NCBI RefSeq assembly: GCF_014635185.1
Contig: NZ_BMCM01000001.1
Coordinates: forward strand, 682,001-746,000
Reading direction: 5' to 3'
Origin: Microbacterium murale
GTDB lineage: Bacteria; Actinomycetota; Actinomycetes; Actinomycetales; Microbacteriaceae
DNA length: 64,000 nt
Part shown: one piece after another, positions 1 through 10,114 of the stretch
How positions within the stretch are numbered: the first letter of the stretch is position 1
Layout of the letters: the number at the start of each line of letters is the position of its first letter
Translations under genes and position numbers: made by a program
The notes under the pieces: generated by a model
Told to the model about the DNA's origin: nothing
The model's input: only the letters and a program-made list of their open reading frames with translations
Databases searched by the model: none

Positions 1-1258
1 CGAAGGCTCCGTACGGGTTGCCGGTGAGCACCGAGACCGACAGTCCGTACTCGGACGAGTTGATGATGTCGATGGCCTCGTCGACGGTGTCGTACGTCGT
101 GATCGGGGCGACCGGTCCGAAGATCTCCTGCGAGAACGCCGGAGCGTCGTGCGGCACGTTCGACAGCACGGTCGGCCGGTAGAACAGGTTTTCGTAGGTG
201 CCCCCGGCGCTCAGCGTCGCGCCGGCGGCGACCGAGTCCCGCACGATGCCGTCGATCTTCGACAGCTGACCGGCGTCGATGATCGGTCCGAGAGCGTTGG
301 TCGGATCGGTCGGGTCGCCGACGGTGATGCGGTTCGCGATCTCGCTGAGCTTGGCGGTGTACTCCTCGGCCATGGAACGGTGCACGAGGTGACGCCCCGT
401 GGTCATGCAGATCTGCCCCTGGTGCAGGAACGATCCCCACGCGCCGGCGGATGCCGCGGCATCCACGTCGGCGTCGGGCATGACGAGCAGGGCGTTGTTG
501 CCGCCGAGCTCAAGGTGCAGCTTCTTCAGCAGCGGAGCCGCGGCCTCGCCGATCTTGCGACCGGCGGCCGTGGAACCCGTGAACGAGATGCACGGCACGT
601 CCGGGTGCGCGACCAGCGCGGCACCGACGTCTGCCCCTCCTGGCAGCACGTGCAGCAGCCCATCGGGCAGACCGGCTTCGGCGAGGATCTCGGCGAGGGT
701 GAGTCCGCCGGCGACGGGCGTGCGCGGGTCCGGCTTCAGGATCACGGCGTTGCCGAGCGCGAGCGCCGGGACGATCGAGCGGGCCGACAGGATCGACGGG
801 AAGTTGAACGGACTGATCACGCCCACCACGCCGACGGGCACGTACCGACCGATCGAGGTACGCGGCTTCATGCTGCGCAGCAGCTGTCCGTAGGGCTGAG
901 CGGCCAGGCCCGCACCCTCGGCGAACTCGGAGACGACCAGGCCCGCCTCGAATGCGGCCTTGCCCGCTCCGGACCCGGACTCGGGGATCAGCCAGTCGGT
1001 GAGCCGCTCGGGCGCGGCCTTCAGGATCGCCGACGCCTTCGCCATGACGGCGGCACGTTCGGTGTACGGCAGTGCCGCCCACGCGACCTGCGCCTTGGTG
1101 GCCTCGGCGACTGCGGTGTCGAGGTCAGCGGTGGTGGCCTGGCCGACCGTCGCGATCACCTCACCCGTTGCCGGGGCCAGTACGTCGAGGGTTCCACCCT
1201 CACCCGCCACGAAGCCGCCGCTCGTGTAGATCTTCTCTTCCCAGATTGTGGTGCTCAT
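1..1258 (-). CDS. Aldehyde dehydrogenase, benzaldehyde/vanillin dehydrogenase type (3' end outside window)
   Basis: NAD(P)-dependent oxidation of an aldehyde, probably an aromatic one, to the acid. The first 419 codons are present; the C-terminus lies beyond base 1. Visible family marks are ISPFNFP (148-154), SFTGST (225-230), the general-base Glu250 in LELGGNN and the catalytic Cys284 in GQICMTTGR. Start ATG at 1258 follows AAAAAAGGATGAACG. It is the third gene of a leftward operon behind a VAO-type oxidase and a carotenoid-oxygenase-family dioxygenase, 31 bases after the latter. The HQGQIC setting of the catalytic Cys resembles benzaldehyde/vanillin dehydrogenases. Substrate is inferred from context, the family is certain. 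Confidence 0.93.
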   Translation of the reverse strand, partial: MSTTIWEEKIYTSGGFVAGEGGTLDVLAPATGEVIATVGQATTADLDTAVAEATKAQVAWAALPYTERAAVMAKASAILKAAPERLTDWLIPESGSGAGKAAFEAGLVVSEFAEGAGLAAQPYGQLLRSMKPRTSIGRYVPVGVVGVISPFNFPSILSARSIVPALALGNAVILKPDPRTPVAGGLTLAEILAEAGLPDGLLHVLPGGADVGAALVAHPDVPCISFTGSTAAGRKIGEAAAPLLKKLHLELGGNNALLVMPDADVDAAASAGAWGSFLHQGQICMTTGRHLVHRSMAEEYTAKLSEIANRITVGDPTDPTNALGPIIDAGQLSKIDGIVRDSVAAGATLSAGGTYENLFYRPTVLSNVPHDAPAFSQEIFGPVAPITTYDTVDEAIDIINSSEYGLSVSVLTGNPYGAF

Positions 1259-1289
1259 CGTTCATCCTTTTTTCGTGGTGTGAGGTGAG

Positions 1290-2825
1290 TCAGGCGGCGT
1301 TCTCACGCTGCGCGGCGATGGCAGCATCCAACTGCTCCGCCTCGGCCCACGAACCGTGGAACGCGAACGGCACGCGCACGGGCAGCTTCACCCGGGCCAG
1401 CGGTGCGGCGGTGAAGGACACCGTCTCATGCACGAGCAGCTCGGACAATCCCGTTTCGCGGTTCCACCACAGCGACAGCAGGTAGCCATCGTTCTCGGCG
1501 TTCGCGCCACGGCGCTGCACGAACACGGGCTCGCTCGGGTTGGTCAGCGCATCCTCGCCCTCGATGACGATCGTCTGCCCGGTCTCGAAGTCGAAACGGG
1601 CGAGGCCGTCGGTCATCGTCTCCGGGGTGAGGTCGCGCGTGGTCGCGAAATAACCGAACTGCTGCTTCTGGCCGAGGAGCGCGTCGTTGATCATCGGGAA
1701 CTCACCAGCCACACCGCTGAGCATCCGATTGGACGCCTTCTTGGTCACCGGGTCCAGCTCGAACCTCCACGCCATCGCCGGCGGGAACCAGCTGTGCGAA
1801 GCCACCGGGTCGTCCGGGTGCTCGGCCGGGTTGCCCAGGCGCGAGATGACATGCAGGTCGACGACGATGCGGTCCTCGGTCTCGTAGGCGTTGAAGAAGT
1901 GGGTCGGGGCGAGCATGAGTCCGGTGTCGTACCAGGTCACCTTCTTCGTCCGGCGGTCGAGCACCGCGAACCGGCTGCCGTCCGGCACGGCATCCTCGTC
2001 CCAGAGCACGCCGGGGCGGCCCTGCATGATCCGGTCCATCCGGAACTGCGTGGGCGAGATGAGGAAGATCGCGTGGTGCTCGCTGACGATGTAGTCGTGC
2101 ACCATCGCGGGGCAGCCCATGTCGAACGTGAAGCTGTCGATGATGTTCGCGTTGCGGGCATCCGCCTCGTACCAGGTGAGATTCTGACCGACCGCGGCGA
2201 AGAAGAGCATGTTGCCGCTGTGCGGGTCGATCTTGTAGTGGGCGGTGCACAGCACGTCGAGGCCGCCGTTGAAGTCGTAGTTCCCGAACGTGTCGAGGGT
2301 TCCGGCATCCAGCGACTGCGGCAGGCCGCCCTCGAAGTACACCAGCAGGTGGTCGGCGAACAGGCCGACGTTGGTGTTGGCGACGTTCTTCGCCGGCGGA
2401 GCACCGGCGGGCATCTGGGCCGGCGGCGCGGCCAGGCCATTCACGAAACCGCTGTAGACGGCCTCGCCGGCCTCGACCTCGATCTTCATCGAGTCGGTCA
2501 TGACCCACTTCATGCGAAAGGAGGCCTTGCCGTCGCGGATGTAAGTCGCCGCTACGCCGCCATCGCCCTCCCACCAGTGGTAGCGATCGAGGTCGCGCGG
2601 GGCGAAGCGGGGGTTGTTGGCGATGCGGAACAGTGCGCCCGCGAGGTCCTCGGGCAGCTTGCCGATGACCGGCAGGTCGTACGCCTCGGACTCCTCGGCC
2701 CATGGTGCGAACGGGCCGTTCAGGAACTTGTTGGCCGTGTCCCACTGCACATCCGCCGGGTGGCGCTCAGCGGGCTGAGGGCGCGGCACGATCGTGGTCG
2801 GGTTCACCAGTGGCACATCACGCAT
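1290..2825 (-). CDS. Carotenoid-cleavage-oxygenase family dioxygenase (lignostilbene/isoeugenol-cleaving type)
   Basis: A 511-aa non-heme iron enzyme that splits an activated C=C bond with O2. The four iron-binding histidines are all visible: His196 (CTAHYK), His243 (MVHDY), His309 (THFFNAYE) and His490 (FHGSW). Lys147 just before NVANTNV may be the phenol-binding lysine known in lignostilbene dioxygenases (tentative alignment). Start chosen at ATG 2825, preceded by GAAGGAG; an upstream in-frame ATG at 2921 would run into the neighbour. Lying between a VAO-type phenol oxidase and an aldehyde dehydrogenase, it most plausibly cleaves a 4-hydroxyphenyl alkene such as isoeugenol, coniferyl alcohol or a hydroxystilbene to an aromatic aldehyde rather than a carotenoid. 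Family sure, substrate inferred. Confidence 0.9.
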   Translation of the reverse strand: MRDVPLVNPTTIVPRPQPAERHPADVQWDTANKFLNGPFAPWAEESEAYDLPVIGKLPEDLAGALFRIANNPRFAPRDLDRYHWWEGDGGVAATYIRDGKASFRMKWVMTDSMKIEVEAGEAVYSGFVNGLAAPPAQMPAGAPPAKNVANTNVGLFADHLLVYFEGGLPQSLDAGTLDTFGNYDFNGGLDVLCTAHYKIDPHSGNMLFFAAVGQNLTWYEADARNANIIDSFTFDMGCPAMVHDYIVSEHHAIFLISPTQFRMDRIMQGRPGVLWDEDAVPDGSRFAVLDRRTKKVTWYDTGLMLAPTHFFNAYETEDRIVVDLHVISRLGNPAEHPDDPVASHSWFPPAMAWRFELDPVTKKASNRMLSGVAGEFPMINDALLGQKQQFGYFATTRDLTPETMTDGLARFDFETGQTIVIEGEDALTNPSEPVFVQRRGANAENDGYLLSLWWNRETGLSELLVHETVSFTAAPLARVKLPVRVPFAFHGSWAEAEQLDAAIAAQRENAA

Positions 2826-2850
2826 GGGGGCTCCTTCGAATCGGATCAGG

Positions 2851-4401
2851 TCAGTGGGTGCGTTCGGACGGCCAGATGCCGTGGCTGCCGGGCGCGAGGA
2901 TGCCTGCCGGATCGACGGCATCCTTCAGGCGGGAGTAGAAGCGGTGCAGCGCTCCGTCACCGGCGCTGTACAGGGATGCGATACGGTCCTGGATGGTGAC
3001 GTGGCCGCGGTACTCGCTCCAGCCCCATTCGGCGGCGCGGTCGATCATCTCGTCGGCTGCCGCCCTGGCACGCGCGGCCTCTTCGGGGTCGCTGCTGTCG
3101 AAGATGATCATGCAGGCGCCGATGAGCGTGCGCGATTGCGCGATCCAGCCGAAACCGGCGACGAGGTCGTGCTTGTCGAGGATCTCCATGACCATCGCCT
3201 CGTGCTGCGCCGCAGCCTCACCCGTGAACGGGATGATCGGCGAGAAGTCGAAGTGCCCGACGGTCGGCCCGAAGTGCTTGCGCAGCATGTCGAGCAGGAA
3301 CTGGTTCGGGATGCCGGCGGGCACGAGGTCCAGCGGGTGGACCTCGTGCGGGTCCACATCGCCCGGGTAAGTGCGCAGGTCGACGATCGCGCCCGGGATG
3401 TGTGCGACGGCTTCGCGGACGATCGCCTCGCGCGCGCTGATGAGCGACGGACGCCCGTAGAAGCCGACCCGCGCGTTCACGCGGCCGGGAGGGAAGACGG
3501 CCGACATCTTCTGCTTCTTCGATCCGCCACTGGTGTCGTCCCACGGGGCCATACGGCCGCCCTCCGGTTCGGGCGAGCTGACGATGAGCGGATGCCCCTG
3601 GATGGTGCCGTCCTGCACGAGCGGGCCGAGCGCGTCGATGAGGGCCGGGATGCGGGCAGCGTCGTCGAGGATCACAGAACCGACCGTGAAGGCCTCGGGC
3701 TGGGGCGCGAGCCAGATGCCGAGCTTGGTGATGATGCCGAAGTTCGACTGCAGGAACAGCGAGTCGATCGACGGGCCGAAGCCGCGCTTCGCGCGGGCGC
3801 CGAGGGCGTTGTTCGGCAGCGCCCACAGTCCCGTGCGCAGCACGGTGCCGTCGGGAAGGACGACCTCCATGCCGGCGACGGCGGAGGCGTGGTCGCCGAA
3901 CTCGGTGTAGCCGACGCCGTGTTCGGCGGTGTTGCCGACGACGCTGCCCCAGCCGAGGTCGGGGGTCGAGATCCACAGCTTCGCGCCGCGCTTGCTGATC
4001 TCCGCGTGCAACTCGGTGAACGAGACGCCGGGTTCAACGATGGCGTAGCCGCCCTGCTCGTCGAGCTCGAGCACCTGGTTCATGCGGCGGAGGTTCAGGC
4101 TGATCGACCCTCCCACGACGGGCGCCGCTCCGCCATAGCCGTAGTTGCGGCCCTGCGAGCTCGGCCACACCGGGACTCCGGCTTCGGCTGCGATGCGGAC
4201 GATCGCCTGCACCTCTTCGACGGACGCGGGCTGCACCACGACGGCGGGCTCGGGCGTGGGCGTCAGGCTCGTGGCCCACGGATCCAGGAACTCGGCCGCG
4301 TCATCGCCGATGAGCACGTGATCAGCTCCGACGATGTCGGCGAGCCGGGCGCGTAGCTGCTCCGACGCGACCTGGACTTCTGCGCCTTGGGCGATCGACA
4401 T
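2851..4401 (-). CDS. VAO-family FAD oxidase/dehydrogenase for 4-substituted phenols (eugenol oxidase / 4-cresol dehydrogenase type)
   Basis: A 516-aa flavoprotein with an N-terminal FAD-binding domain (PP-loop region 54-110) and a C-terminal cap. It matches vanillyl-alcohol oxidase along its length: GNTAEHGVGYTEFGDH (156-171, with the catalytic-type Asp170), Tyr464-Arg465 in the phenolate-binding YRGH, and the C-terminal GILAPGSHGIWP. Family members abstract hydride from the carbon para to a phenol OH, giving vinyl/allyl phenols, alcohols or aldehydes. The histidine that normally carries covalent FAD (MHHIV in VAO) seems replaced by Gly428 in RTLIGACMIIF, so FAD may be non-covalent. First gene of the operon with the dioxygenase (25 bases away) and aldehyde dehydrogenase. 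Confidence 0.9.
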   Translation of the reverse strand: MSIAQGAEVQVASEQLRARLADIVGADHVLIGDDAAEFLDPWATSLTPTPEPAVVVQPASVEEVQAIVRIAAEAGVPVWPSSQGRNYGYGGAAPVVGGSISLNLRRMNQVLELDEQGGYAIVEPGVSFTELHAEISKRGAKLWISTPDLGWGSVVGNTAEHGVGYTEFGDHASAVAGMEVVLPDGTVLRTGLWALPNNALGARAKRGFGPSIDSLFLQSNFGIITKLGIWLAPQPEAFTVGSVILDDAARIPALIDALGPLVQDGTIQGHPLIVSSPEPEGGRMAPWDDTSGGSKKQKMSAVFPPGRVNARVGFYGRPSLISAREAIVREAVAHIPGAIVDLRTYPGDVDPHEVHPLDLVPAGIPNQFLLDMLRKHFGPTVGHFDFSPIIPFTGEAAAQHEAMVMEILDKHDLVAGFGWIAQSRTLIGACMIIFDSSDPEEAARARAAADEMIDRAAEWGWSEYRGHVTIQDRIASLYSAGDGALHRFYSRLKDAVDPAGILAPGSHGIWPSERTH

Positions 4402-4579
4402 TCAAACTCCCGTGTTCTTCAGCCGCGCCACTCCTCATAGTGGCGTTACACGATAGTCTTCATCGTCGAGCTGCCCTATTTCTCGATCTGCGGTGATGAA
4501 GCAGGATTGGAAAATTATCGCGGCGCGACAGTTCACGATCGACGCGGCCGATCGCCTGGTGGAGGGCACGACTCCGGAG
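4402..4579 (-). promoter_or_regulatory. Promoter region of the VAO-dioxygenase-aldehyde dehydrogenase operon
   Basis: This 178-base gap separates the MarR gene stop from the oxidase start on the same strand, so it should hold the operon promoter. It contains a perfect 5-bp inverted repeat ACGAT-N7-ATCGT (4450-4466). Read leftward it gives CTATCGT, the same heptamer found at one edge of the palindrome in front of the MobA-like gene (7240-7246), so both may bind the MarR protein. No clear -10/-35 pair was assigned. Confidence 0.4.
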
Positions 4580-5044
4580 TTATGCGGAGGCGTCGGCGGC
4601 GTCGCCGCGCTCGAGCATCTGCCACAGCACGCGGAACAGGGCCGCGGACTCGGCCGAGTCCATGTGCGCGGTGAGCTCGCGTTGCACCTCGACCACCAGC
4701 GGCGCGAGGCGCTCTCGCTCGGCAGCACCATGAGCGGTGAGCGCCACGACGTTGCGGCGCGCATCGCCCGCCGCACGCTGACGGGTGATAAGGCCCGACT
4801 TCTCCATCCGCCGCACCAGATCCGCGACCGTCGATCTGTCGAGATCGACCTCGTCGCCGAGCTCGCGCTGGCTCGCCGCGCCAAGCCGTTCGAGCACGGC
4901 GAGGATGCTGTACTGCGTACTCGAGATGTCGGGCGAGGCCACCCGAGCCCAGGTCGACAGGTGCAGCTGCTGCGCGCGGCGGATGAGGTTGCCGACGTGC
5001 CGCTGCGGCTCGGGGAGATCTGCCATCGTCATCACGGCATCCAT
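4580..5044 (-). CDS. MarR-family transcriptional regulator
   Basis: A 154-aa winged-helix regulator. The fold is readable: dimer helix, then STQYSILAVLERLG, recognition helix region SQRELGDEVDLDRSTVADLVRRMEKSGLI split over 55-85, wing with RQRAAGDARRNVVALT, and C-terminal dimerisation helix. Start ATG 5044 has AAGAAGGAAGG directly upstream; an internal ATG at 5032 is possible. It is co-directional with the MobA-like monooxygenase and lies between that gene and the VAO operon, so it is the obvious candidate repressor of one or both, released by a phenolic ligand as is usual for MarR regulators of aromatic catabolism. Ligand unknown. Confidence 0.9.
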   Translation of the reverse strand: MDAVMTMADLPEPQRHVGNLIRRAQQLHLSTWARVASPDISSTQYSILAVLERLGAASQRELGDEVDLDRSTVADLVRRMEKSGLITRQRAAGDARRNVVALTAHGAAERERLAPLVVEVQRELTAHMDSAESAALFRVLWQMLERGDAADASA

Positions 5045-5054
5045 CCTTCCTTCT

Positions 5055-5264
5055 TCAGATGAACAGGTGTCCGATCGCCACAACCATGACACCGTCCGGA
5101 CGCACATAGCTGGTATCGCCTGCCGTGAGAACGACCTTGGCCCTCAGTTCCGACGCCCGTTGCAGGGTCACCTTGGCCTCCAGTGCGAGAAGACTGCGCG
5201 CCGCGGCATCCACCGCCTTGGATCCGCCGAGCTTGACCTCGAACGCCGACGTTTTGACTATCAC
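5055..5264 (-). CDS. Small hypothetical protein (69 aa) coupled to the monooxygenase
   Basis: Not recognised. GTG start overlaps the monooxygenase stop in GTGA, and the stop lies 10 bases before the MarR start, so it is translationally placed inside a three-gene unit. The protein is mixed alpha/beta with many Ala/Val/Lys and no Cys, signal peptide or membrane segment; it ends in hydrophobic VMVVAIGHLFI. The C-terminal part could form a small beta structure. Its position suggests an accessory role in hydroxybenzoate metabolism, but that is inference only. It could also be a chance ORF; the overlap and codon periodicity favour a real gene. Confidence 0.55.
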   Translation of the reverse strand: MIVKTSAFEVKLGGSKAVDAAARSLLALEAKVTLQRASELRAKVVLTAGDTSYVRPDGVMVVAIGHLFI

Positions 5265-7177
5265 TTCTGCGATGAGCCGACGACCACTTCAGCGCCGACC
5301 GGCAACAGGAAGTCGGCGAAGAAGTCCCGCAGCTCGTCGCGCGCCGACAGCGGCAGGACGTGCGCGATGTACTGGTCCGGCCGGACCACGACGATCGCAC
5401 CTTCCTCTGCGATCCCGCGCCGCGCGAAGATGTCGTCGGCGGGGTCAGCTGCCCATACCTTCTCCCAGTCCTGCAGCCCGAGCGGACCCGTCTTCGGCAC
5501 GAGCAGCGCGGGCAGCGACGTCACGTCGACGTCGTGGTGCGAGCCGCGGAAGATCCCGTGCACGTCGATCACGCTGTCGATGTCGGCGTCCGCTGCCGTG
5601 AACGTGCGCACGGGCGAGTCCGCATCATCTGCCAACCACGTCGCGAGATCGCGCAGTGCTGCACCCGAAGCGTCGCCGAAGGCGTAGATGCGCCAGCGTC
5701 CGTCGGCGCTGTGGGAGTGCCCGAGCTGCATACGGCGGGCATCGGCCACGCGGCGGACCGGCGCGGAGTGGAACCGCGTGCCGATCTCGAAGCCGGTCGC
5801 GAGCTGCTGGTGCTCAGGCGATCCCGTGAGCGTCGACGGCGTGTACGTCGTCGCGAGCCCGGCGGTGTACCGGCCCTGGCGGGCGAACTCGGCCTGCATG
5901 TCGGCGGGCGAGACGCCGCCGCGCTCCGGATGCTCCGGGTCGAGCGCCGGCTGCGCGATGAACGCCGACCAGTGCTTGTCGAACGCGATGAGATCAACCG
6001 CTATTGCCTGACGCTCCTCCGAGTATGTGCGCAGCAGCGCAGCATCCGAGCGTCCCTGCAGAACGGCGGCGAGCTTCCAGCCGAGATTGAACGCGTCCTG
6101 CATCGACACGTTCATGCCCTGCCCGGCCTTGGCACTGTGCGTGTGGCAGGCGTCGCCCGCGAGGAACAGGTGCGGTGTGGCATCCGCCGCGGATTCCGGG
6201 GACAGATCATCGAAGCGATCCGCGACCCGCTGACCGACCTCGTAGACGCTCGACCAGGCGACCTGCTGCACATCGATCGAGTAGGGGTGCAGAATCGCGT
6301 TCGCGACGTCCGCGAGCTGGGTGGCCGTGGTCTTACGGATCTCCGCATCGCCTGCCTCAACCACGCCGAGGTCTACGTAGCAGCGCACCATGTTGCCGCC
6401 CTCACGCGGGATCATCAGCAGGCTGCCCTTGCCGGCGGACTGCACGACGTTCTTGGTGCGCCAGTCGGGGAAGTCGGTCGTGGCGAGCACGTCCATGACG
6501 CCCCACGCGTGATTGGCCGCATCACCCTCCAGGCGGATGCCGAGAGCGCGACGCACGTTGCTGCGCGCGCCGTCGCAGCCGATCACGTACTTGGCGCGGA
6601 CGGTGAACTCCTCGCCCTCGGTCCGCCGCAGGGTCGCGATGACCGGATGCTCCGACGAGGTGTCCATCTCGTAGCCGATGAACTCCACGCCGTAATCTGC
6701 TTCGAGCCTGCTCGCGGACTTCGCCGCGTGATCGAGCAGGAACTGCTGCATGCGCGCCTGGTTCACGATCACGTGCGGGAACTCGCTGAGTCCTGCAGGA
6801 GTGTCATCGACCCAACCGCTGCGCGCGATCTTGGATCGGTCGTCGTCGGAAGGGCCCCAGAACCGCACCTCGTTGACCCAGTACGCCTCACGGACGAGCG
6901 CGTCGGCGAGACCGAACGCCTGGAACATCTCGACCGTACGGCACGCGACACCATCGGCCTGTCCGACCTCGAGCGGGCCCGACCGACGCTCGATGACGCG
7001 CGTCGTGATGTCGGGGAACGCCGCGAGCTGCGCGGCGAGCACGGTGCCGGCGGGCCCGGTGCCGACGATGAGCACGTCGACTTCGTTCGGGAGCTCGGCA
7101 GCGCGGTCCCTCGTCTGCGGCGCCGCGGGCACGACGTCCGGGTCACCGGGGCGATATCCGTCGCGGTAGAACTGCAT
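5261..7177 (-). CDS. FAD-dependent aromatic monooxygenase, 3-hydroxybenzoate 4-monooxygenase / phenol 2-monooxygenase type
   Basis: A 638-aa class A flavoprotein hydroxylase that would add an OH ortho to an existing phenolic OH using NAD(P)H and O2. Seen: GTGPAG dinucleotide motif (39-44), CDGARS (201-206), GDACHTHSAKAGQGMN (341-356) and a C-terminal thioredoxin-like domain from about residue 450, the layout of MobA and phenol hydroxylases. The length equals MobA of Comamonas (about 640). Start ATG 7177 follows GAAGGAG; the longer in-frame extension overlaps the next gene in another frame and is not real. It probably yields protocatechuate, the same product as PobA at 8936. Followed by the 69-aa protein and MarR gene. 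Confidence 0.88.
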   Translation of the reverse strand: MQFYRDGYRPGDPDVVPAAPQTRDRAAELPNEVDVLIVGTGPAGTVLAAQLAAFPDITTRVIERRSGPLEVGQADGVACRTVEMFQAFGLADALVREAYWVNEVRFWGPSDDDRSKIARSGWVDDTPAGLSEFPHVIVNQARMQQFLLDHAAKSASRLEADYGVEFIGYEMDTSSEHPVIATLRRTEGEEFTVRAKYVIGCDGARSNVRRALGIRLEGDAANHAWGVMDVLATTDFPDWRTKNVVQSAGKGSLLMIPREGGNMVRCYVDLGVVEAGDAEIRKTTATQLADVANAILHPYSIDVQQVAWSSVYEVGQRVADRFDDLSPESAADATPHLFLAGDACHTHSAKAGQGMNVSMQDAFNLGWKLAAVLQGRSDAALLRTYSEERQAIAVDLIAFDKHWSAFIAQPALDPEHPERGGVSPADMQAEFARQGRYTAGLATTYTPSTLTGSPEHQQLATGFEIGTRFHSAPVRRVADARRMQLGHSHSADGRWRIYAFGDASGAALRDLATWLADDADSPVRTFTAADADIDSVIDVHGIFRGSHHDVDVTSLPALLVPKTGPLGLQDWEKVWAADPADDIFARRGIAEEGAIVVVRPDQYIAHVLPLSARDELRDFFADFLLPVGAEVVVGSSQK

Positions 7178-7277: not shown

Positions 7278-7928
7278 TCAGTTCTTCTTGCGGTTCCAGC
7301 TGGCCTTCGCCGGGGCGAAGGGGCTGCGCACGTGGATCGCCCACGTCGAGTGCGGGTGGATGCGCAGCAGCGCGGTCTCGTAGAACGACACCGCGTCCGC
7401 CGTGAGCGACGGGAGAACGGCGTCCTTGTCCGTGGTGTCCTCCGCGCGAGGACGCAGCGCCTTCCAGACCAGCTGCACCTCGGGAGCGCCGGTGGGGATG
7501 CCCTCGATATCGAGCACCGCGCGGTCCCACGGCAGAGTGAGCCGCGGGTCGCGCTTGTAGACCCAGGCCCGCGGGGCGCCGTCTTCGGCGTTGACCTGTA
7601 GCACCCAGCAGTCCGTGGCATCGTCGCGGATGAGCACCGGCTGCAGATCGGCATCCTGCGGAGCATCCGCGAACGGCACGATCTCATCCTCGTCCGGCAC
7701 CCACGCGGTGAACCCCTCCGGAAGACTCGCGACCAGTTCTGCGAGATCTGCGGCGACGACGCTCACGTCGATGTTCTCGCGCGCACGGATCGGATGCCCG
7801 AGCCAGCGATCGAGCGCGGCCCCACCCGACAACCACCAGCGCACGGATGCCGCGGCGAGGAGCCGGGCGACCGCCTGGGGCTCGAGCGGCGCCCACGGCG
7901 TCGCTGAGGTGGGGGTGGAGGAGGGCAT
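7278..7928 (-). CDS. Nucleotidyltransferase-fold protein (aminoglycoside-2''-adenylyltransferase-like, PF10706 type)
   Basis: A 216-aa protein with the weak nucleotidyltransferase signature SGGAALDRWLG (34-44) followed by the acidic pair in ENIDVSVV (51-58). These match the GG and DxD-type positions of the minimal nucleotidyltransferase fold found in the aminoglycoside adenylyltransferase-related family. Actinobacteria carry many paralogues without proven resistance function, so no drug claim is made. The gene is leftward; its 5' end faces the divergent iclR gene with 72 bases between. The product has no signal peptide or membrane segment and ends in a basic tail KASWNRKKN. Family moderately sure, role unknown. 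Confidence 0.7.
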   Translation of the reverse strand: MPSSTPTSATPWAPLEPQAVARLLAAASVRWWLSGGAALDRWLGHPIRARENIDVSVVAADLAELVASLPEGFTAWVPDEDEIVPFADAPQDADLQPVLIRDDATDCWVLQVNAEDGAPRAWVYKRDPRLTLPWDRAVLDIEGIPTGAPEVQLVWKALRPRAEDTTDKDAVLPSLTADAVSFYETALLRIHPHSTWAIHVRSPFAPAKASWNRKKN

Positions 7929-8000
7929 GGGACGAGGTTACCCGGGTCTGACCATTCGGCATCCGCTCACAAGGCGACTGACAGGTGGCAGGCTAGCCGC

Positions 8001-8935: not shown

Positions 8936-10114
8936 ATGATCACCAGCATCCGCACCCGCGTCGCGATCGTCGGGGCGGGCCCAGCGGGGCTGATCCTGTC
9001 GCACCTGCTCGCCGACGCCGGCATCGAGTCGATCGTGATCGACCAGCGATCCCGCGACGAGATCGAGCACACGATCCGCGCCGGCATCCTCGAGCAGGGC
9101 ACCGTCGACCTGCTCACCGCGATCGACCCGAACACCCGCGTGCACACGATCGGCGACCGGCACGACGGCATCGAGCTGCGCTTCCAGGGCGAGGGACACC
9201 GCATCGACTTCCCCGGGCTCGTCGGTCGCAGCGTCTGGCTCTATCCGCAGCACGAGGTCCTCAAAGACATGCTGCGGCTGCGCCTCGGCGCCGGCCAGGA
9301 TCTGCGCTTCGGCGTGACAGCATCCCGTGTCGAAGACGTCGAGAGCGAACGCCCTCGCGTGTTCGCGACCACCGCCGACGGCGAGGAGCTCACGATCGAG
9401 GCCGACTTCGTGGTCGGCGCCGACGGCTCGCGCTCTGTCGTCCGCCCCGCGATCACCGGCGACTCGCGCAGCGGGTACTTCCGCGAGTACCCGTTCGCCT
9501 GGTTCGGCATCCTGACCGAAGCGCCGCCCTCGGCAGAGGAACTCATCTACAGCAACTCTCGCAACGGCTTCGCCCTCATCAGCCAACGCAGTCCCGAGGT
9601 GCAGCGCATGTACTTCCAGTGCGCACCCGACGCCGACCCGAATGCGCTGACCGAGGAGCAGATCTGGGAGACGCTGCAGTCACGCGTTCCGGGCACGACG
9701 CTCAAGGAAGGCCCGATCTTCCAGCGCGACGTGCTGCGCTTCCGCAGCTTCGTGGCGCACGAACTGCGCCATGGTCGCGCAGCGCTCGTCGGCGATGCCG
9801 CCCACACGGTGCCGCCGACCGGGGCGAAGGGCATGAACCTCGCGATCGCCGACGTCGTGCTGCTCGCTCGCGCCCTGCGAGCGCTGCTCAACGAGAGCGA
9901 CGAACGCCCGATCGACGGCTACGCCGAACAGGCGTCGCGTCGCATCTGGAAGGCGCAGCACTTCTCGTGGTGGATGACGAGCATGCTGCACACCGCACCC
10001 GACGCGAGCGACTTCGACCACCTCCGCCAGGCCGGAGAGCTGCGGTCGGTCGTCGAATCCGAGGCCGGTCGCACCTTCCTCGCCGAGGCGTACACGGGCT
10101 GGCCCATCGGCTGA
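8936..10114 (+). CDS. pobA: 4-hydroxybenzoate 3-monooxygenase
   Basis: Converts 4-hydroxybenzoate to protocatechuate with FAD, NAD(P)H and O2, feeding ring cleavage. The 392-aa product has the length of classical PobA. Seen: GAGPAG (12-17), the NADPH/FAD DG motif in GADGSRSVV, and GDAAHTVPPTGAKGMNLAIAD near residue 290. The substrate-contact region RAGILEQGTVDLL is also that of PobA. Start ATG 8936 is set by GAAGGAGACACC; an in-frame ATG at 8906 lacks a ribosome site. Partner regulator is the IclR gene just upstream. Protocatechuate dioxygenase genes are not in this window. Confidence 0.95.
   Translation: MITSIRTRVAIVGAGPAGLILSHLLADAGIESIVIDQRSRDEIEHTIRAGILEQGTVDLLTAIDPNTRVHTIGDRHDGIELRFQGEGHRIDFPGLVGRSVWLYPQHEVLKDMLRLRLGAGQDLRFGVTASRVEDVESERPRVFATTADGEELTIEADFVVGADGSRSVVRPAITGDSRSGYFREYPFAWFGILTEAPPSAEELIYSNSRNGFALISQRSPEVQRMYFQCAPDADPNALTEEQIWETLQSRVPGTTLKEGPIFQRDVLRFRSFVAHELRHGRAALVGDAAHTVPPTGAKGMNLAIADVVLLARALRALLNESDERPIDGYAEQASRRIWKAQHFSWWMTSMLHTAPDASDFDHLRQAGELRSVVESEAGRTFLAEAYTGWPIG

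Follow-up and report, generated by a model that had tools for sequence, protein, structure and literature searches.

A compact operon for a 4-phenol oxidase, a carotenoid-oxygenase-family dioxygenase and an aldehyde dehydrogenase, probably for plant phenol side chains, in a hydroxybenzoate island of Microbacterium murale

Can a single bacterial operon oxidise a plant phenol on its side chain, cut that chain at a carbon-carbon double bond and oxidise the aldehyde that is formed? The question is raised by the left end of a 64,000-nucleotide stretch of Microbacterium murale (assembly GCF_014635185.1, contig NZ_BMCM01000001.1, positions 682,001 to 746,000; hereafter the window), where three genes encode a flavin 4-phenol oxidase of the VAO family, a carotenoid-oxygenase-family dioxygenase (CCD) and an aldehyde dehydrogenase (ALDH). 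The operon appears to be a compact, acquired set of genes, probably for oxidising a plant-phenol side chain, cutting it and finishing it off. On balance, and with limited confidence, we favour an oxidise-cleave-oxidise cascade feeding a funnel for aromatic acids. Our literature search found no publication on this operon.

The three minus-strand genes were confirmed and belong to the Pfam families FAD_binding_4/FAD-oxidase_C (oxidase), RPE65 (CCD) and Aldedh (ALDH). The open reading frame listed for the CCD (1290-2921) overlaps the oxidase gene, and the GAAGGAG directly before the ATG at 2825, which resembles a ribosome-binding site, suggests that the gene starts there. Since the gaps between the genes are only 25 and 31 bases, the three likely form one operon, in agreement with the first-pass annotation of the window. 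That annotation had also called the three-gene route complete-looking; it is complete once the flanking DNA is added but not within the window, whose edge cuts the ALDH gene; the entire gene extends to the left (contig C1 681807-683258, locus L002 16807-18258) and encodes 483 residues. A promoter scan of the operon gave no promoter-like site, and a terminator scan gave a single candidate, on the opposite strand, where 2.3 would be expected by chance; neither scan adds to the evidence. The CCD is the sole PF03055 match in the genome at a threshold of E 0.001.

In the proposed pathway, the substrate would be a para-substituted phenol, probably one without methoxyl groups. The oxidase would abstract a hydride at its benzylic carbon, giving a p-quinone methide to be released as an alkene of the 4-hydroxystyryl type. 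The CCD would split the C=C bond of this alkene into 4-hydroxybenzaldehyde and a second carbonyl fragment, and the ALDH would convert the aldehyde to 4-hydroxybenzoate. This acid could be consumed through PobA and the genes for protocatechuate 4,5-cleavage, all in the surrounding island; a PucR protein would regulate the set and an MFS protein would serve as transporter. The gene families, the catalytic residues, the gene order with its recurrence and the insertion into the island make up the sequence-based part of this reading; we infer the order of the reactions, a dehydrogenating oxidase rather than one that merely hydrates or oxidises alcohols, the substrate, and the way in which the CCD holds it.

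The nearest solved structures to the oxidase are the 8s7n series (372 bits, 38.7% identity), which the position-151 variants lead us to equate with the vanillyl alcohol dehydrogenase (VAD) of PMC7617285, and then eugenol oxidase (EUGO, 5fxd; 313 bits, 36.9% identity). His383 aligns with EUGO His390, the histidine for 8alpha-N3-histidyl-FAD (flavin adenine dinucleotide), which predicts a covalent link. Asp148 and Leu149 provide the acidic residue and leucine at the flavin N5 that distinguish oxidases from dehydrogenases (PMC7617285), and Tyr89, Tyr464 and Arg465 provide the Tyr/Tyr/Arg phenolate triad (PMC11148156). Both EUGO and 8s7n share these features, the leucine of 8s7n being that of an engineered variant. 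All the tested features are present and support an oxidase-branch 4-phenol oxidase. In the oxidase tree, which lacks 4-ethylphenol oxidase itself, the window protein forms a 100/100 clade with those of CH12i, Nocardia and the genomes G241 and G080, and a second 100/100 clade unites EUGO and VAD with four further rows; the grouping with eugenol oxidase suggested earlier is not recovered. Each of the five oxidases of the window clade is encoded in one gene run with a CCD, which is of the window type (hereafter query-type) in three cases and of lignostilbene type in two. Two of the five were found via their CCD, and the fair linkage count is that of the family search, three of three cases. A search of 394 genomes of the class gave no further close relative of this oxidase.

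The CCD has all four iron histidines reported by the first-pass annotation: H196, H243, H309 and H490 align with those of NOV1. In LSD4, the 4-hydroxyl of the substrate is gripped through Tyr101 and Lys134, with Phe59 (PMC8191317), the Phe that packs against the ring. Phe59, Tyr101 and Lys134 correspond to Trp85, Phe127 and Phe164 in the window CCD, and the Tyr/Lys phenol dyad is thus missing. Query-type copies number 39 (35 loci from a scan of named genomes, which used two short patterns and is not exhaustive, three from the family search, and the window; some share a genome). Trp and Phe occupy the first two pocket sites in all 39, and the third is Phe in 31, Tyr in eight and Lys in none. 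Tyr and Lys are both kept in 15 lignostilbene-type rows, three of them references, and L018 has Tyr and Arg. In the related enzyme MapADO, Tyr and Lys are called essential, and restriction to 4-hydroxyaryl alkenes is stated as a limit of the family of 4-His iron dioxygenases (PMC12308385). The 24-h values given there are 13.2 for Y136F, 3.3 for K169A and 0.6 for the double variant, and the row at 19.8 is taken as wild type, so that Y136F alone keeps about two thirds of the product. Loss of the Lys would be the graver change, because K169A falls further than Y136F.

The CCD tree holds 50 of 64 rows, without isoeugenol monooxygenase sequences, and is rooted at the midpoint; the program flags a meeting of several long branches. 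In it, 28 query-type rows form one 99/99 clade, joined at 100/100 by two 42%-identical Rhodococcus sisters. A 100/98 branch parts this clade from LsdA, LSD4 and NOV1, to which the window CCD is 26-27% identical in the structure alignment, and the lignostilbene-type assignment of the first-pass annotation is borne out neither by this position nor by the pocket. Grouping with apocarotenoid enzymes had been named there as grounds for rejecting the route: the clade falls on the carotenoid-oxygenase side of the branch but not inside the carotenoid enzymes. By this tree it is a deep clade of its own, and the window CCD belongs to an actinobacterial clade without a characterised member found in this analysis. 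The predicted structure (mean predicted local distance difference test score, pLDDT, 76.5) is equally close to both enzyme classes. A second CCD, 42% identical to the window CCD and sister to the entire query-type clade, is encoded in L022 (9304-10866) and L023 (14346-15875) and has Phe/Ile/Thr in the pocket.

The top five solved matches of the ALDH are all 4-hydroxybenzaldehyde dehydrogenase chains (9jw2, E 2.3e-103), and the next five include benzaldehyde, vanillin (9ihb, E 1e-86, rank 9) and salicylaldehyde dehydrogenases; the order reflects scores alone, and at full length the protein stays under the cut-off of every NCBIfam model among the matches listed (25 of 40). It is probably an aromatic, hydroxybenzaldehyde-type dehydrogenase. 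The methoxyl question was addressed through the VanA_C domain, for which no match was found in the window genome or in CH12i (other O-demethylases were not searched). Because of this, p-hydroxyphenyl substrates would fit better than guaiacyl ones in these two Microbacterium triplets only; M. testaceum does have VanA_C, as do G080, G241 and the Nocardia genome, in each of which an oxidase lies near a CCD. The guaiacyl and vanillate products anticipated by the first-pass annotation are thus less likely in the window genome. In the corresponding explanation, a eugenol or propylguaiacol oxidase and an isoeugenol- or lignostilbene-type dioxygenase would lead to vanillin and vanillate. It calls on the same three enzyme families, the designed cascades of PROGO with NOV1 and of EUGO with an alkene-cleaving oxygenase work (PMC13047440, PMC12131681), all eight oxidases of PMC11148156, AoEUGO included, are active on eugenol, and the three oxidase-CCD genomes just named have VanA_C. 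However, the oxidase and the CCD both lie outside the reference clades, the phenol dyad is missing, and the window genome and CH12i have no VanA_C match; we give this explanation very little credence and place it last.

All 35 scan loci are from Actinobacteria, and the CCD clade was found in seven actinobacterial families; within the genus, three of 367 genomes have a query-type CCD (E 1e-60). An ALDH gene lies within 400 bp of the CCD on the same strand in 33 of the 39 copies, window included, and a PucR gene within 2.5 kb in 14. The search for the same triplet elsewhere, as first proposed, was successful: VAO, CCD and ALDH stand together in four copies from three families (the window, CH12i, a Propionibacteriaceae metagenome-assembled genome and Nocardia miyunensis). 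The recurrence of the pair in 33 and of the triplet in four of the 39 copies argues that the association is not due to chance. Moreover, G080 and G241 carry a CCD-ALDH-VAO run with an oxidase of the window clade and an ALDH 54-55% identical, in which the CCD is of lignostilbene type; that of G241 matches LsdA at 1e-129, and both keep Tyr and Lys and score under the NCBIfam cut-off. Two separate CCD clades thus fill the same slot. Among 398 genomes of the family, the 4-phenol oxidase occurs in 23 (threshold 1e-70), a CCD in eight (1e-30) and both in six (Fisher p 4.9e-7, a value that counts the window genome and makes no correction for relatedness), and the two genes are near each other in four of these six.

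A CCD on the carotenoid-oxygenase side of the tree might instead cleave apocarotenoids or terpenoids, its place beside the oxidase being incidental. Against this stand the 33 copies that adjoin an ALDH gene, the window member of this ALDH family coming closest to hydroxybenzaldehyde dehydrogenases, and the exchange with a lignostilbene-type enzyme in an otherwise like gene run. The neighbours speak against it too. In the 44 clustered loci (the left flank, four loci whose CCD is of another type, and the loci of all 39 copies), an MhpA-like flavin hydroxylase occurs in 27, an FAA hydrolase in 25 and VOC-type proteins in 26 (two kinds, 17 and 9); IclR occurs in 25. We consider the apocarotenoid explanation very unlikely.

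The larger of the two VOC proteins belongs to another ring module and may be an extradiol dioxygenase. It is found in four of four tested genomes with a query-type CCD and no linked oxidase, and in none of four with an oxidase near a CCD. This points, with caution, to two architectures, a ring-cleavage version and an oxidase version placed on the ordinary 4-hydroxybenzoate route. A LigAB gene occurs in three of seven genomes tested, all three Microbacterium, and the drain would therefore differ in the others.

The cascade is the simplest reading, because the neighbours are conserved and because CCD clades are exchanged beside the same kind of oxidase and ALDH; the natural cascade put forward by the first-pass annotation thus remains plausible, and is somewhat strengthened by the recurring neighbours. 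Several observations weigh against it. With the missing dyad and a clade of its own, cleavage of 4-hydroxyaryl alkenes by the CCD is not assured. In the oxidase pocket, EUGO Arg278, Glu378, Gln425 and Gly392 are replaced by Val, Leu, Gly and Asp. Loss of Arg278 and Glu378 might favour dehydrogenation, yet it argues only weakly for alkene formation because it is common among the 25 unlinked oxidases of the family (Glu378 kept in one, Arg278 in three). Ten of these 25, and AoEUGO as well, also have the Asp at EUGO position 392; of the eight oxidases of PMC11148156, AoEUGO showed the highest activity on 4-hydroxybenzyl alcohol, and it left chavicol unconverted. As for gene order, 35 of the 39 CCD copies have no adjacent oxidase, and in G234 the oxidase and CCD lie on opposite strands and the CCD has Tyr and Arg. 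The VOC contrast is likewise blurred: only G000 and G926 (CH12i) of the four VOC-negative genomes hold a query-type CCD, the other two (G080, G241) holding the other type. Outside the comparison, the triplet-bearing Nocardia miyunensis has this same VOC protein in its second cluster with a CCD (L046).

These points lead to the main rival, in which the product of the oxidase is not the substrate of the CCD. The oxidase would turn a 4-hydroxybenzyl alcohol or ether directly into 4-hydroxybenzaldehyde, the CCD would form this or a similar aldehyde from a different alkene, for example a stilbenoid, and the two would share the ALDH and PobA. The Asp common to AoEUGO and many unlinked oxidases, as well as the number of CCD-ALDH copies without an adjacent VAO gene, speak for such parallel feeds. 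Nevertheless, the window oxidase clade occurs only in CCD gene runs, both in the tree and in the family search, and its partners come from two CCD clades; a common aldehyde drain would not require this much. We regard this rival as possible but doubtful, and retain the cascade as the preferred reading.

The nearest precedents are the designed EUGO and PROGO cascades and the PinVW/PinU system. The former convert eugenol or 4-propylguaiacol to vanillin (PMC12131681, PMC13047440) and, as proposed here, let C=C cleavage by a CCD-family enzyme follow a VAO-family oxidase; they differ in combining parts from separate organisms and in their guaiacyl substrates, whereas the Microbacterium genes form a natural operon with an ALDH, an oxidase 37% identical to EUGO and a CCD outside the NOV1 clade. 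The statement that such cascades had so far been assembled from separate organisms is correct for these designs but overlooks the natural sequence published for pinoresinol catabolism in Novosphingobium rhizosphaerae LY (PMC12607616, PMC12997858). There, a cresol-dehydrogenase-family enzyme, PinVW, forms a diaryl alkene via a proposed quinone methide and a lignostilbene-dioxygenase homologue, PinU, cleaves it; growth suffered as well when genes for protocatechuate 4,5-cleavage were hit. PinVW differs as a flavocytochrome that loses formaldehyde, and PinU in being coupled to pinZ; the accessible portions of the two papers describe no VAO-CCD-ALDH triplet. If the proposed cascade is correct, the operon is a natural, single-operon version of what engineers built from parts, using O2 as the oxidant in its first two steps with no cytochrome partner. 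It also points to a C=C-cleaving dioxygenase clade; the literature searched yielded no assay for it or for the window oxidase clade. The missing phenol dyad offers a route to learning how 4-His iron dioxygenases hold substrates other than 4-hydroxyaryl alkenes.

The operon lies in an island of aromatic catabolism (Table 1). To its left are a PucR regulator on the opposite strand, an MFS transporter, a DUF3237 protein, a LysR regulator and then the protocatechuate 4,5-cleavage set, composed of a LigA-LigB fusion (NF009912, above cut-off), two Amidohydro_2 proteins and a GFO/IDH/MocA-type oxidoreductase. From their position we take one amidohydrolase to be LigJ-like and the oxidoreductase to be LigC-like, names that no NCBIfam equivalog backs. 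To the right are MarR, a MobA-type 3-hydroxybenzoate hydroxylase, IclR and PobA. The PobA proposed at 8936 is confirmed as a frame from that ATG inside the same island; it scores 385.6 bits on the equivalog TIGR02360, under its cut-off of 538.7, and stands beside IclR in L086, L087 and L089 also.

Table 1. Features of the window at and beside the operon
Feature	Coordinates	Strand	Remarks
ALDH, 5' part only in window	1..1258	-	PF00171 E 8.1e-130
CCD (RPE65/carotenoid-oxygenase family dioxygenase)	1290..2825	-	511 aa; PF03055 E 1.9e-104; start inferred
Flavin 4-phenol oxidase (VAO/PCMH family)	2851..4401	-	516 aa; PF01565 E 2.1e-32, PF02913 E 1.5e-8
Window share of the ~8.3-kb insert	1..4577	.	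remaining left 3.7 kb outside window
MarR regulator	4580..5044	-	adjoins MobA in L085, L087, L089, L074
3-hydroxybenzoate 4-hydroxylase, MobA-type	5261..7177	-	2dkh E 4.1e-206; start inferred from first residue aligned to 2dkh
PobA-type 4-hydroxybenzoate 3-monooxygenase	8936..10114	+	NF006091 498 bits (cut-off 351)

In the genomes G774 and G775, the island runs in the order LigC, LigAB, LigJ, LysR, nucleotidyltransferase, MarR, MobA, IclR and PobA, with 81-95% protein identity, and the genes for DUF3237, MFS, PucR, ALDH, CCD and VAO are all absent from it. In the window genome these six genes span about 8.3 kb (C1 about 678268-686577) between the lig genes and the mobA/pobA genes. The left edge of this insert is a 184-base stretch resembling the nucleotidyltransferase gene, which occupies the position of the insertion site in G774 and G775; a whole copy of it lies at window 7286-7961, between mobA and iclR, where the nucleotidyltransferase-like gene with a weak PF10706 match is delimited at 7278-7928. 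The MarR gene probably belongs to the older mobA unit rather than to the insert. In base composition the block does not stand out (G+C 0.674, against 0.667 and 0.687). The six genes are most likely an acquired cassette inside a hydroxybenzoate funnel, because the island runs without them in G774 and G775, CH12i holds the same six at a different place, and so few genomes of the genus have the CCD. The DUF3237 protein (L002 13261-13725, left of the window) moves with the cassette here and in CH12i, and has a homologue in L012.

A more specific version of the cascade can be proposed for dihydrostilbenes (bibenzyls), of which lunularin and dihydroresveratrol are examples. The oxidase would be a bibenzyl dehydrogenase, making a stilbene out of a two-carbon bridge that is saturated at first. 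The CCD would represent a new group of aryl-alkene dioxygenases, confined to an actinobacterial clade, in which an aromatic Trp/Phe/Phe cage grips the substrate instead of the Tyr/Lys clamp; the CCD-ALDH core would serve stilbenoids in many Actinobacteria, the oxidase having been added where their saturated analogues occur, and PobA and MobA would finish the two aldehydes. This route fits because the CCD exchanges with a stilbene-type enzyme and because PobA and MobA flank the operon. It is a proposal and not a finding, which we think rather unlikely to hold as a whole; MobA is common in the genus and also present in the island without the insert.

Some further observations were made on the loci compared. 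In CH12i (L020 10001-13030), the CCD and ALDH read as one 1010-residue frame through a frameshift near the 3' end of the CCD, which is a draft-sequence error or a damaged copy and not a fusion. Six loci from Streptomyces and Amycolatopsis (L036, L037, L039, L040, L048 and L049) hold a lignostilbene-type CCD that keeps Tyr and Lys and a query-type CCD within about 10 kb, together with an ALDH and a flavin hydroxylase and, in most, VOC and FAA-hydrolase genes. In Streptomyces sp. SID12488 (L032 4650-7900), genes resembling those for gentisate dioxygenase, FAA hydrolase and 3-hydroxybenzoate 6-hydroxylase, below the NCBIfam cut-offs, lie immediately upstream of PucR-CCD-ALDH. Finally, in L058 (1941-4820), from a Pseudomonas putida YC-AE1 plasmid that was typed as conjugative, an ALDH gene comes directly after a CCD gene with the Tyr/Lys dyad.

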